Positions 14,953 through 32,521 of a stretch of 64,000 bases of DNA are shown here, in pieces. This DNA is from Paenibacillus albicereus (GTDB taxonomy: Bacteria > Bacillota > Bacilli > Paenibacillales > Paenibacillaceae): contig NZ_CP051428.1 of the NCBI RefSeq assembly GCF_012676905.1, positions 735,001 to 799,000 of the forward strand, written 5' to 3'. The position numbers were made by a program, and so were the translations under genes. The notes beneath the pieces were generated by a model. That model saw only the letters and a list, made by a program, of their open reading frames with translations, was not told where the DNA came from and made no database searches. Within the stretch, counting starts at the first letter, position 1. Each line of letters starts with the position of its first letter.

Positions 14953-15026
14953 AGAGCGTATTGGTTTTTCATTTTTTCATTCCAGCAGGAAAGCGAGGAT
15001 CGAGGTAGGCCCATCCAGCATCACAA

Positions 15027-15270
15027 GCGCCAGAGCTTGCAACGATCAAGCTGAACCATCCCCCGGCCTCTTCGCCCGTTGCGAAGAATGCCGGCAGCGA
15101 TGATCCGTCAAGCTGACGAGGTGAAGGTGTTCGAAATTTCGGCGGGGACCTTCCGGTGGAGCATGACATCGACAGCCATTCCGGCAAAAGGACGCGGGCA
15201 ACCGGTTCTACAAACGGATGGCGAACATGCCTTTGAGACGGACTTTCATACGGACGCGGACGAGATTCCC
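15027..15270 (+). ncRNA. glmS self-cleaving ribozyme/riboswitch
   Basis: Cis-acting ribozyme that cleaves the glmS mRNA leader when it binds glucosamine-6-phosphate. The 5' core motif AAGCGCCAGAGCTTG puts the cleavage before G15027. The catalytic core TGACGAGGTGAAGGT and TTCGAAATTTCGGCGGGGA (about 15114-15148), then CCTTCCGG, matches the glmS ribozyme consensus. The 3' limit (peripheral P3/P4 helices) is estimated. About 190 bases separate it from the glmS start. Confidence 0.88.
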
Positions 15271-29089: not shown

Positions 29090-30938
29090 GAATGATGAAG
29101 GCCGCCAGGGAGCGGCGCCGCGCCGGGGCCATCCCGGCGGGGGACCGATGGGCGGACCGATGGGGGGCGGCATGGCGCCGGGCGACAAGGCGAAGGACTT
29201 CCGCGCCACGCTTCGCAAGCTGGCCGCCTACTGCCGGAAGTACATGCCGATCATCGTGCTGTCGCTCGTGCTCGCGCTGGCCGGGTCCGCGCTGAACGTC
29301 ATCGGGCCGGACCTGCTGCGCGACATCACCGACAAGATCCAGGAAGGCATCCGGGGGACGATCGACATCGATGCGATCAACCGGATCGTGCTGCTGCTCG
29401 CGGCGCTGTACGGCGCCGGCCTGATCTTCAACTACGCGCAGGGGTTCATCATGGCGACGGTCACCCAGCGTATCACGAACAAGATGCGGACCGAGATTTC
29501 CGCTAAAATCAACCGCATGCCGCTGCGCTACTTCGACTCGACGAGCTACGGCAACGTGCTGAGCCGCGTCACCAACGACATCGACATGATCGGCCAGACG
29601 CTGAACAACAGCCTCGGCATGCTCGTCTCGTCCGTCGCCTTGTTCGTCGGCGCGCTCGTCATGATGGTGTACACGAACTGGATCCTCGCGCTCACGGCCG
29701 TCGTCTCGACGATCCTCGGCTTCGCGCTCATGAGCGTCATCATGAAGCACTCGCAGCGCTATTTCGTCGCCCAGCAGGAGGTGCTCGGGCGGCTCAACGG
29801 CCATATCGAGGAGACCTACTCCGGCCATGCGGTCGTCAAGGCGTACAACGCCGAGGACGAGGCCAAGGCCGCCTTCCACGACCTGAACGGCAAGCTGTAC
29901 GGCAGCGCTTGGAAGTCGCAGTTCATGTCCGGCCTCATGATGCCGATCATGGGCTTCGTCGGCAACCTCGGCTACGTCGCGATCTGCGTCGTCGGCGCGA
30001 TGCTCGTCACCTCGGACTCGATCAGCATCGGCACGATCGTCGCGTTCATGATCTACATCCGGCTGTTCACGCAGCCGCTCGGCCAGATCGCCCAGGCGGC
30101 GACCAACCTGCAGGCGGCGGCAGCCGCGGGCGAGCGCGTCTTCGAATTCCTCGAGGAGGAGGAGCTGGCGGACGAAGGCGGCAAGACGGCGAAGCTGGCG
30201 AACGTCAAAGGCGACGTCGAATTCCGCCATGTCCGCTTCGGCTACGCGGCCGACAAGGACGTCATCAAGGACTTCTCGATGAAGGCGGAGGCCGGGCAAA
30301 AGATCGCCATCGTCGGCCCGACCGGAGCCGGCAAGACGACGCTCGTCAACCTGCTCATGCGGTTCTACGAGCTGAACGGAGGCGAGATCCTCGTCGACGG
30401 AATGCCGATCGACCGGATGACGCGGGAGGACGTGCATAGCCTGTTCAGCATGGTGCTGCAGGATACCTGGCTGTTCGAGGGCACGATCCGCGACAACATC
30501 GCCTTCTCCCGTCCGGACGTCACGGATGCGCAGATCGAGGAGGCCTGCCGCGCCGTCGGCCTGGACCACTTCATCCGCACGCTGCCGGAAGGCTACGGCA
30601 CCGTGCTGGGCGACCGCGCCAGCCTGTCGGCCGGGCAGAAGCAGCTGCTCACGATCGCGCGGGCGATGATCGACGACGCGCCGCTGCTCATCCTCGACGA
30701 GGCGACCAGCTCCGTCGACACGCGCACCGAGCTGCTCATCCAGCGCGCGATGGACCGCCTGTCCGCCGGCAAGACGTCGTTCGTCATCGCCCACCGGCTG
30801 TCCACGATCAAGAACGCCGACCGCATCCTCGTCATGAAGGACGGCGACATCCTCGAGACGGGCACGCATGACGAGCTGCTGGCGCGGGGCGGCTTCTACG
30901 CCGAGCTGTACAACAGCCAGTTCGAGCAGGTTTCCTGA
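29064..30938 (+). CDS. Heterodimeric ABC multidrug exporter, subunit 2 (catalytic Glu present)
   Basis: Partner half-transporter, 624 residues. A Gly/Pro/Met-rich leader (GGGPMGGPMGGGMAPGDK) precedes six helices. The nucleotide-binding domain has Walker A GPTGAGKTT (418-426) and Walker B LLILDEATSSVD with D545-E546 intact, but its signature is LSAGQ rather than LSGGQ. So the competent ATP site is made of this Walker B and subunit 1's signature, the degenerate one of LSAGQ and subunit 1's DD. The start is the ATG eight bases after AAGGAGG; a longer frame upstream lies inside subunit 1. Confidence 0.92.
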   Translation: MAQSNQPYKNDEGRQGAAPRRGHPGGGPMGGPMGGGMAPGDKAKDFRATLRKLAAYCRKYMPIIVLSLVLALAGSALNVIGPDLLRDITDKIQEGIRGTIDIDAINRIVLLLAALYGAGLIFNYAQGFIMATVTQRITNKMRTEISAKINRMPLRYFDSTSYGNVLSRVTNDIDMIGQTLNNSLGMLVSSVALFVGALVMMVYTNWILALTAVVSTILGFALMSVIMKHSQRYFVAQQEVLGRLNGHIEETYSGHAVVKAYNAEDEAKAAFHDLNGKLYGSAWKSQFMSGLMMPIMGFVGNLGYVAICVVGAMLVTSDSISIGTIVAFMIYIRLFTQPLGQIAQAATNLQAAAAAGERVFEFLEEEELADEGGKTAKLANVKGDVEFRHVRFGYAADKDVIKDFSMKAEAGQKIAIVGPTGAGKTTLVNLLMRFYELNGGEILVDGMPIDRMTREDVHSLFSMVLQDTWLFEGTIRDNIAFSRPDVTDAQIEEACRAVGLDHFIRTLPEGYGTVLGDRASLSAGQKQLLTIARAMIDDAPLLILDEATSSVDTRTELLIQRAMDRLSAGKTSFVIAHRLSTIKNADRILVMKDGDILETGTHDELLARGGFYAELYNSQFEQVS

Positions 30939-30958
30939 GCCTTCCATGCACGTTAAGG

Positions 30959-31002
30959 CCGGCCCGCGACTTCCGGATTCGGAGCGCTGCGGGCCGGTTT
31001 TT
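30959..31002 (+). terminator. Intrinsic terminator of the marR-ABC operon
   Basis: CCGGCCCGC (30959-30967) pairs with GCGGGCCGG (30989-30997), then TTTTT; the loop of 21 bases may fold further. Confidence 0.85.
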
Positions 31003-31014
31003 CCATCGCGGCGG

Positions 31015-31043
31015 TTGTCGCCGTCCGAACCGGCTCCTATACT
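31015..31043 (+). promoter_or_regulatory. Promoter of the EF-G-binding protein leader
   Basis: TTGTCG at 31015-31020, 17 bp, TATACT at 31038-31043. Transcription from about 31050 gives a leader of 190 bases before the structural gene. Confidence 0.6.
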
Positions 31044-31066
31044 GGAGGAAAGGGGGATTGGTACGG

Positions 31067-31117
31067 ATGGCAAATCACGTTGCCGGGAGACGCCGGACTC
31101 ATGCAAAGCCTGACTGA
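31067..31117 (+). CDS. Putative 16-residue leader peptide
   Basis: ATG 10 bases after AAAGGGGG opens a short frame, MANHVAGRRRTHAKPD, ending in TGA. It has three consecutive Arg codons. Its last codons form one arm of a hairpin in the leader of the EF-G-binding protein gene. Such peptides act as ribosome-position sensors in attenuation. It is too short for statistical support; the call rests on the ribosome site and the pairing pattern around it. Confidence 0.4.
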   Translation: MANHVAGRRRTHAKPD

Positions 31118-31230
31118 GGGGCGATCCTTTGCATGGGGCATATCCGGCTGAAGACGATATCGCCCGCCGATCGTTTCCGAGGATGGGGCTTTGCACCTTA
31201 TGAATCTTCAACCATCTTTATCATAAGGAG
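31100..31230 (+). promoter_or_regulatory. Predicted translation attenuator upstream of EF-G-binding protein gene
   Basis: Segment A (CATGCAAAG, 31100-31108) can pair with B (CTTTGCATG, 31127-31135), or its overlapping TGCAAAGCC (31102-31110) with C (GGCTTTGCA, 31187-31195). The choices exclude each other. D (CCTTATGA, 31196-31203), immediately after C, pairs with E (TCATAAGG, 31221-31228), which contains most of the ribosome site AAGGAG (31225-31230) of the gene starting at 31240. A lies in the leader peptide's last codons. See the finding for the model. Confidence 0.5.
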
Positions 31231-31239
31231 CGTTAAACG

Positions 31240-31899
31240 ATGATTCCCCCATTTATCCGAAACCATCAATTCAATGGAATTCAAAAGCAGGTCCGCTTGC
31301 TGCAGCAGGCGTGCGCTTCGGCCGCAGATCCGAAGGTGCTCCGCTCGGCGCGCGAGGGCGTGCTGCTGGCGCTGCACGAGGCGTTTCCGGATGCGGACGA
31401 AGGGCAGCGCGCCCTGCTGGAGCCGATCGCCGGCTGGCATGCGGCGGATGATTTCCGGCTCGGGCTGCACGCCCTGCAGCCGTACCGGCTTCCGTTTCCG
31501 ACTCCGTCCGACGCCGGGCTGCGCCGTCTGTTCCCCAAGGTCAAGAAGCTCAAGACGCCGGACCTGGCCGAGCTTGACCTCGCGCAGACGACCTATCTCG
31601 GCTGGACGGAGGCCGGCAGCGGACGCATGCTGCTCGTCTGCGGCATCGACGGCATGCTCATCGGAGTCGAGGGCCGCGTGACCGGGGCGGTACGCGGCAA
31701 GAACGTCTGCTTCGCCTGCCGGCATCATGGCGAGGTCGGCTTGTTCACCGCCGTCGCCAAGCACCGGCCGGCCAAGGCCTCGCCCGACTATTACAAGGCG
31801 ATCGGCAACTACATTTGCCTCGACAGCGCCGTCTGCAACCGGCAGATCGAGGATGCCGGGCCGCTGGAGCGGTTCGTCCGCGACGTGACGGCGCGCTGA
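31240..31899 (+). CDS. FusB/FusC-family elongation factor G-binding protein
   Basis: Binds EF-G on the ribosome and helps release it; relatives give fusidic-acid resistance. The 219 residues match the family: an N-terminal helical domain (MIPPFIRNHQFNGIQKQVRL), a central sheet (LDLAQTTYLGWTEAGSGRML), and a C-terminal zinc-binding part with C157-x2-C160 (NVCFACRHH) and C193-x5-C199 (YICLDSAVCN). The start follows AAGGAG by nine bases. Whether it protects against fusidic acid or has a housekeeping role cannot be seen from sequence. The leader suggests inducible expression. Confidence 0.8.
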   Translation: MIPPFIRNHQFNGIQKQVRLLQQACASAADPKVLRSAREGVLLALHEAFPDADEGQRALLEPIAGWHAADDFRLGLHALQPYRLPFPTPSDAGLRRLFPKVKKLKTPDLAELDLAQTTYLGWTEAGSGRMLLVCGIDGMLIGVEGRVTGAVRGKNVCFACRHHGEVGLFTAVAKHRPAKASPDYYKAIGNYICLDSAVCNRQIEDAGPLERFVRDVTAR

Positions 31900-31939
31900 T
31901 GGAGGCAGCAGGACGAGAAGAGAAAGGGGAACGGTCGGA

Positions 31940-32521
31940 ATGAAGAGCATCGCTGTCTTTTGCGGGTCGCGTCCGGGGGCTTCGGCCCTGTACATGGAGG
32001 AGGCGCGGGCGATGGGACGAAAGCTGGCGGAAAGCGGCATCGAGCTCGTCTACGGAGGCGCGGCGGTCGGTCTGATGGGAGCGGTCGCGGACGGCGCGCT
32101 GGAGGCGGGCGGCCGGGCGATCGGCGTGCTCCCGCAATTCCTGCAGGATCGGGAAATCGCGCATCGGGGACTGACGGAGCTGATCGTCGTCGACTCGATG
32201 CACGAGCGCAAGCAGCGGATGGCGGAGCTGGCGGACGGCTTCGCCGCCTTGCCGGGAGGTCCGGGCACGATGGAGGAGTATTTCGAAATCTTCACCTGGG
32301 GCCAGCTCGGCCTGCACGGCAAGCCGTGCGGCCTGCTGAACGTCGGAGGCTACTTCGACCCGCTGCTCGCGATGTTCGAGCGGATGGAGCAGGAAGGCTT
32401 CATGCAGCCTCAGCATCGCGGCATGGTGCTGGCGGACGGCTCGCCGGACGGGCTGCTGGAGCAGATGCTGGCCTACGAGCCGCCGGCGGTCAAGACCTAT
32501 CTGACCCCCGGCCGCACGTAG
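31940..32521 (+). CDS. LOG-family nucleotide phosphoribohydrolase (YvdD-like)
   Basis: Rossmann-fold enzyme that releases the base from nucleoside 5'-monophosphates (cytokinin-activating LOG activity in plants and bacteria); formerly called lysine decarboxylase. The diagnostic motifs are MHERK (87-91) and PGGPGTMEE (105-113). 193 residues is standard. It begins 38 bases after the EF-G-binding protein gene with AAAGGGG, and may share its transcript with the next gene. Confidence 0.9.
   Translation: MKSIAVFCGSRPGASALYMEEARAMGRKLAESGIELVYGGAAVGLMGAVADGALEAGGRAIGVLPQFLQDREIAHRGLTELIVVDSMHERKQRMAELADGFAALPGGPGTMEEYFEIFTWGQLGLHGKPCGLLNVGGYFDPLLAMFERMEQEGFMQPQHRGMVLADGSPDGLLEQMLAYEPPAVKTYLTPGRT

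Follow-up and report, generated by a model that had tools for sequence, protein, structure and literature searches.

The FusB-like gene at position 31240 of the window, the 64,000-nucleotide stretch of Paenibacillus albicereus DNA analysed here, is preceded by a leader RNA with a short reading frame of its own (uORF), hereafter the HAKP leader. Comparison across relatives confirms that this element is real and kept far beyond chance, the proof being its conservation and not its folding energy. The reading put forward here, at a probability of about 0.6, is that the HAKP leader is a cis-acting RNA that sets translation of the FusB-like gene by the position of the ribosome on the uORF, with one helix (A:C) clamping a second (D:E) that holds the gene's ribosome site. 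The general type of device, an attenuator that senses translation, is well supported; its inducer and its direction are proposed more tentatively below.

The leader and its downstream gene

The preliminary description had placed a promoter, a 16-codon frame, the alternative pairings A:B and A:C and a helix D:E over the gene's AAGGAG at 31015-31240, and the coordinates of all of these agree with the sequence. The features are as follows.

31015..31043, + strand: promoter-like site TTGTCG-17-TATACT, 9 of 12 consensus positions
31067..31117, + strand: leader frame (uORF) of 16 codons, MANHVAGRRRTHAKPD and a stop, from ATG at 31067 to TGA at 31117, with a purine-rich ribosome site upstream
31069..31084, + strand: hairpin P1, at the beginning of the uORF (window sequence GGCAA/TTGCC), from the swap test and the alignment
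31100..31111, + strand: segment A, CATGCAAAGCCT, the H-A-K-P codons of the uORF; partner B or C
31118..31125, + strand: segment X, GGGGCGAT; partner Y (or Z)
31127..31135, + strand: segment B, CTTTGCATG; partner A
31136..31165, + strand: B':Y hairpin, competing with X:Y
31159..31165, + strand: segment Y, ATCGCCC; partner X, in a putative pseudoknot together with A:B
31169..31177, + strand: segment Z, GATCGTTTC; alternative partner of X
31186..31195, + strand: segment C, GGGCTTTGCA; partner A, abutting D with no gap
31196..31203, + strand: segment D, CCTTATGA; partner E
31221..31230, + strand: segment E, including the gene's Shine-Dalgarno sequence AAGGAG; the D:E part is TCATAAGG at 31221-31228
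31240..31899, + strand: FusB-like EF-G-binding protein gene, 219 aa, ATG at 31240

In the window, A:B joins CATGCAAAG (31100-31108) to CTTTGCATG (31127-31135) over 9 bp, and A:C joins TGCAAAGCCT (31102-31111) to GGGCTTTGCA (31186-31195) by nine Watson-Crick pairs and one G-U pair. D:E pairs CCTTATGA with TCATAAGG (8 bp, 17-base loop) and overlaps the AAGGAG at 31225-31230. Segment A does lie, as first described, in the last codons of the leader peptide, where it reads HAKP in the window uORF. One promoter-like site was observed in 30900-32000, versus 0.1 in shuffles. The folding energy of the window leader is unremarkable (z -1.68; 11 of 200 shuffles were equally good), and the case for the element therefore rests on comparison.

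At 30959-31002, after the upstream ABC transporter gene, lies an inverted repeat of 9 bp, rich in GC (CCGGCCCGC/GCGGGCCGG), with TTTTT behind it. This is probably the terminator of the ABC transporter operon, which suggests that the leader is likely to be its own transcription unit; an inverted-repeat search with a minimum length of 10 did not find this terminator, as the 9-bp repeat, seen by eye, falls below that length. Elsewhere in the window, a glmS ribozyme lies at 15015-15232 (Rfam RF00234, 67.2 bits).

The product of the window gene matches PF07299 at 44.3 bits (cut-off 27.1) and PF16571 at 36.7 bits (cut-off 27.2), and both the FusB-type EF-G-binding N-terminal domain and the treble-clef zinc finger are present. 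Among solved structures, its relatives are Far1 (FusB) and 2yb5, a putative fusidic acid resistance protein. Against the curated NCBIfam FusB, C, D and F resistance families the protein scores 64.4-80 bits, below their cut-offs of 375-450. With FusB domains above cut-off and a solved FusB relative, the gene is FusB-like as judged from its sequence, which agrees with its earlier description as encoding an EF-G-binding protein. FusB-like homologs were found in 224 of 295 genomes sampled from Paenibacillaceae.

Occurrence in Paenibacillaceae and across Bacilli

The element was found upstream of FusB-like genes in 108 of 112 Paenibacillaceae regions, a non-random set made up of 32 loci and 80 regions from better-scoring homolog matches, with a few skipped. 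In the other four regions (L080, L085, L088 and L102) it was absent by eye and gave no covariance-model match at E ≤ 1. The covariance model, R1, was built from 45 leaders. In the genome of the window, the window locus was the only reported match to it at E ≤ 10, with 150 of 450 first-look candidates scored.

Of 398 Bacilli genomes, at least 98 had matches to the model, a lower bound since eight first-look candidates were scored per genome. These genomes belong to 14 families and to 29 of 146 genera; 34 of the 98 came from Paenibacillaceae and 64 from elsewhere. Among 249 genomes sampled across the phylum, 7 carried a match, of which six were in Bacilli and one was weak (28.9 bits). For the analyses below a model-found set was assembled from the best 71 of 94 matches together with L141 and L150, giving 73 copies of which 71 are distinct; 21 reverse-strand or weak matches were left out. 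Eight of the 73 are further copies in Paenibacillaceae.

Behind these 73 leader copies stand 59 genes of the CD3324 family, 12 FusB-like genes and two that the automatic assignment left unplaced, at L285 and L141. By tblastn the gene downstream of L285 belongs to one of the same two families, and the copy at L141 precedes a SpoU-family rRNA methylase gene (PF00588; L141, 155-1031). The genome that carries L141 has three more copies of the leader, one before a FusB-like gene (L138) and two before CD3324 genes (L139 and L140). The CD3324 assignment was tested on two members, which scored 110.3 and 100.8 bits against NF040785 (cut-off 65); members also match the Pfam family Mor weakly, at and just under the cut-off. 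No paper on the function of CD3324 was found in the open-access literature searched.

A pattern scan listed 80 named loci, and the first gene is FusB-like in 29 of these and CD3324 in 51; because the pattern itself prescribes parts of A and B, these loci were excluded from the A:B test. Among the listed CD3324-first loci with at least 2 kb after CD3324, a FusB-like gene follows within 3.5 kb on the same strand in 42 of 50, at a distance of 107-189 nt after CD3324 in 33 of the 42. Taken over the 79 listed loci with enough downstream sequence, a FusB-like gene stands directly behind the leader or up to 3.5 kb behind CD3324 in 71. None was found downstream of CD3324 in 8 of the 50 loci with at least 2 kb of sequence; these include Bacillus spizizenii, B. 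inaquosorum, B. paralicheniformis and B. sonorensis, and in one of the eight (L186) the FusB-like gene lies upstream instead. Four loci of the Bacillus subtilis group (L162, L191, L206 and L223) carry an HAKP leader and CD3324 with no FusB-like gene in 2.5-6.7 kb downstream, indicating that the leader exists apart from FusB.

Other arrangements were also seen. At L137 the leader and CD3324 occur twice in tandem, 765 bp apart and with identical leaders, before a FusB-like gene. An annotated Pseudalkalibacillus plasmid carries the leader, CD3324 and FusB/FusC consecutively. On a Priestia megaterium plasmid (L114) a FusB-like gene devoid of the HAKP leader lies directly behind a macrolide-family glycosyltransferase gene. 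Overall, the leader belongs chiefly to genes for EF-G-binding proteins and to their partner CD3324, the function of which is uncharacterised.

Conservation of the reading frame and the pairings

The prediction that relatives would keep the leader frame is borne out. A uORF start and a purine-rich site were located, the starts partly by pattern, in 108 of 108 family leaders (98 ATG, 9 GTG and 1 TTG), and in 65 of 70 model-found leaders the open frame that has the best ribosome site reads HAK. The exceptions are L121, L129, L132, L138 (which reads SCKA) and L140. Start-to-A distances in the HAK-frame leaders are 27, 33, 36, 39, 42 and 45 nt, so that leader length changes by threes in these 65 of 70. 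When openness was not used as a criterion, a stop before A occurred in 0 of 64 HAK-frame leaders. From the 39-nt class, 98 leaders were selected for their open frame; the remaining two frames are closed in 61 and 36 of these. Judged by this conservation, the uORF is real.

The body of the peptide is not conserved. Across the 98 leaders selected as open, it shows no purifying selection (pN/pS 0.90; 0.80 and 1.20 in the other frames), and HAKP is kept but A is also fixed by pairing. Within the family the frame through A reads SCKA in 72 of 108 leaders, HAKP in 29 and a third frame in 7, which argues that no one peptide is required there. A stop directly after A was found in 56 of the 72 SCKA-frame leaders versus 9 of the 36 with other frames (Fisher p 2e-7, kinship ignored). 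A second leader frame starting from segment B was considered and rejected, as it stops before Y in 52 of 107 leaders; frames 0, 1 and 2 are open from B to E in 18, 21 and 23 of 107 family leaders. In the window a frame from an ATG in B (31133-31243) does run open to an ATGA overlap with the gene start, and this is unconserved in relatives.

The pairings persist through sequence change. Across 107 distinct family leaders A:B is paired in 99.0% of 963 cells, A:C in 98.8% of cells over 9 pairs and 96.0% over 10 pairs, X:Y in 92.9% and D:E in 87.5%. For P1, which in relatives takes the form GGCAAA/UUUGCC or GGCAAU/AUUGCC, 77.1% of aligned cells are paired, the two forms differing in register, and for B':Y the figure is 80.3%; when each leader's own segments were compared with swapped ones, z was -7.8 for P1 and -4.0 for B':Y. 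Own segments beat swapped ones in the family set for P1, A:B, B':Y, X:Y, X:Z and D:E, and by a small margin for A:C (z -2.3), whose two strands are nearly invariant in these leaders. In the 71 divergent leaders the same comparison gave z -5.1 for A:B, -6.2 for A:C, -7.4 for X:Y and -8.5 for D:E, with -7.1 for X:Z, a value owed in part to rows in which Z includes Y; the controls B:C and A:Y gave -1.0 and +0.6. Both the swap and the shuffle tests ignore the relatedness of the leaders.

Taken together, A:B, X:Y and D:E exceed every one of 500 shuffles on all five measures; pairs changed on both sides number 10 versus 4.6 in shuffles, with 0 of 500 shuffles reaching 10. When the segments were slid against one another, the paired fraction of 93.4% fell to at most 57.2%; the 32 cells changed on both sides were exceeded at two shifts (44 and 43), and the other measures were unexceeded. 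For A:C with X:Z, paired cells and both-sides-changed cells lie above shuffle level, whereas both-sides-changed pairs (2 versus 1.5) and further pair types are at shuffle level. Compensation is directly visible in X:Y, where GGCGAU/AUCGCC becomes GGCAAU/AUUGCC in L142 and AGCGUUA/UAACGCU in L144. A tree-based pairwise covariation test with simulated nulls gave no pair below E 0.7, the test having low power on such conserved stems. The covariation among A, B, C, D and E that the preliminary description had named as its own check is thus seen as compatible and compensatory changes in A:B, A:C and D:E, with no pair reaching below E 0.7 in the tree-based test. The helix X:Y, the spread through the class and the CD3324 partner are additions to that description.

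Two further candidates were set aside. A stretch competing for D (AAUAAUGG, pairing Z':D) is plausible by eye but shows no covariation (z +1.0), and RNAalifold on the 107 leaders returned an extended A:B hairpin with a weak helix between C and the Shine-Dalgarno sequence that is mostly G-U.

A:B and A:C are mutually exclusive and both conserved. Since the segments follow in the order A-X-B-Y, A:B and X:Y could form an H-type pseudoknot, and we infer that they form together in this way; the pseudoknot excludes A:C, which itself encloses X:Y. D abuts C with zero inserted bases in 105 of 107 family leaders. Behind Z, relatives carry UUUCUAAUAAUGG, of which UUCUAA is kept at 90% or more per position although it lies outside the supported helices; the window deviates here (31174-31186) and reads UUUCCGAGGAUGG.

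Proposed mode of action and comparison with known systems

The uORF, the position of A inside it, the exclusive partners B and C, and D:E are kept together across genera, and this combination is the comparative base of the model. The gene's ribosome site is predicted to sit in the D:E helix in the uninduced state. In per-sequence folding of the family leaders the resting state has A:C (mean 0.74) together with D:E, and A:B is the alternative at 0.18; with C out of reach, as would be the case early in transcription, A:B becomes the main pairing (0.71).

The preliminary description had proposed that a ribosome held on A would release the start site, and this step was not reproduced by folding with ribosome footprints, which gave no mean start-site release in any state tried. 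The calculations are at equilibrium and leave out pseudoknots and coaxial stacking. The mean probability of an open Shine-Dalgarno sequence in 107 family leaders was 0.19 free, 0.23 with A masked and 0.22 with a ribosome at the leader stop, in which last state 22 single leaders rose and 12 fell by more than 0.1. In 64 HAK-frame model-found leaders the values were 0.144, 0.142 and 0.153, while locking A, X, B and Y gave 0.136. The window leader fell, from 0.32 free to 0.22 with A masked and 0.17 with the ribosome at the stop. As A:C and D:E do not overlap, the exclusion between A:C and A:B does not by itself open D:E.

The clamp model would supply a link between the two. In unstressed cells ribosomes would clear the uORF, and A:C would stack end to end on D:E, clamping the ribosome site. 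Blocked translocation or recycling would hold a ribosome on the uORF and so keep A from C, either by its own presence or because the A:B/X:Y pseudoknot persists. D:E, deprived of its stacking partner, would then become weak enough for initiation, and the FusB-like product would free stuck EF-G and close the loop. The inducer would be a fusidic-acid-like block, taken from the staphylococcal precedent described below. The stacking itself is suggested by geometry, and the opposite assignment, with A:C as the open state, is possible.

A wider proposal, to which we would give somewhat worse than even odds, is that the HAKP leader is a class-wide dedicated sensor of blocked EF-G, in translocation or recycling, running a small translation-stress regulon, and that FusB-like proteins are an inducible housekeeping rescue from which clinical fusidic acid resistance derives. 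Such a regulon, if true, would comprise the FusB-like gene, CD3324 (frequently found beside it) and, in occasional cases, an rRNA methylase. A conserved leader of FusB-like genes across Bacilli is a concrete, mutable object of study; it links the CD3324 family to EF-G rescue and is a possible natural reporter for blocked translocation.

It is unlikely that the leader is instead an autoregulatory protein-binding site, at which the FusB-like protein, or CD3324 with its Mor-like helix-turn-helix, blocks or opens its own leader and the uORF is secondary. The authors of a FusB structure (PMC3352095) mention that the protein might bind nucleic acid in order to control its own production, and both the weak Mor matches of CD3324 members and the conserved bases outside the supported helices, such as UUCUAA behind Z (each 90% or more), would fit a bound protein. 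However, no single such protein suits leaders that precede FusB-like genes lacking CD3324 (29 of 80 listed loci), CD3324 lacking a FusB-like gene (8 of 50 listed) and one SpoU methylase, and the kept reading frame is left unexplained.

Slightly less probable again is a riboswitch, in which a small molecule would bind the A:B/X:Y pseudoknot and the uORF would be incidental or a second input. Conserved unpaired bases, the possible pseudoknot and class-wide spread are all compatible with this, but the leaders retain their start codon, ribosome site and reading frame, length differences being multiples of three in 65 of 70 of the model-found set, and the target genes observed are translation-related or functionally uncharacterised, none being metabolic.

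The mechanism as literally first proposed, in which a ribosome stalled on A removes both of its pairings and opens D:E directly, is improbable: A does lie within the leader frame, D:E does cover the ribosome site and both helices are conserved, but masking A hardly shifts the open probability, and a direct competitor for D, Z':D (AAUAAUGG), shows no covariation (z +1.0). Transcription attenuation or mRNA stability as the main action, rather than a hidden ribosome site, is very improbable even though vmlR of Bacillus subtilis, according to PMC9226507, combines transcription and translation attenuation, since a scan with loops of 3-8 found no + strand terminator-like site in 30900-32000 and D:E has no following U tract in the window.

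The clamp model would place the HAKP leader among the attenuators. In Rfam, the window leader and 18 loci matched no family at the gathering threshold other than a tmRNA beside leader L127, and two sub-threshold matches end at 31053, before the uORF; no description of the HAKP leader was found in the open-access literature searched. In erm- and cat-type attenuators, translation of a leader peptide decides which of the mutually exclusive pairings forms close to a hidden ribosome site, and the HAKP leader would work in a like manner. It differs from these in that its members share no common peptide, in its possible pseudoknot and in its main target, which acts on EF-G and not on a drug or rRNA.

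The preliminary description had invoked attenuation by leader stalling as an established principle, and the precedent extends to FusB itself, as PMC12008383, PMC12493156 and PMC3352095 report that staphylococcal fusB is induced by translational attenuation. According to the first two, fusidic acid stalls ribosomes on the fusB leader and the start site becomes available. The fusB leader of pUB101 (Staphylococcus aureus) and the HAKP leader have their target gene family in common, and the pUB101 uORF (MLKDITYLKLLDLEYKMLCS and a stop), like that of the HAKP leader, ends inside a segment able, by eye, to pair downstream. In pUB101 this A-like segment would pair, as read from the sequence, with the strand that hides the ribosome site, whereas in the HAKP leader A:C and D:E are neighbours and a pseudoknot may form; the former leader is plasmid-borne in staphylococci and the latter chromosomal in most genomes here. 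The pUB101 leader (L113) gave no match to model R1 at E ≤ 0.01. On present sequence evidence, the HAKP leader is probably an attenuator-type device; it falls outside the pUB101 family by the model test and is without an Rfam match.

Among the motifs compared from the RNA-discovery literature, the nearest is uORFC-6-1 (PMC8632094). This motif lies upstream of hflX in Bacillales and combines a uORF with covarying structure, and antibiotic-induced stalling has been proposed for it. Its likeness to the HAKP leader lies in a Bacillales uORF and covarying RNA upstream of a ribosome-rescue gene. The two differ in that uORFC-6-1 has 51 representatives, precedes hflX and carries Arg-Leu-Arg in its uORF, where the leader described here carries HAKP.
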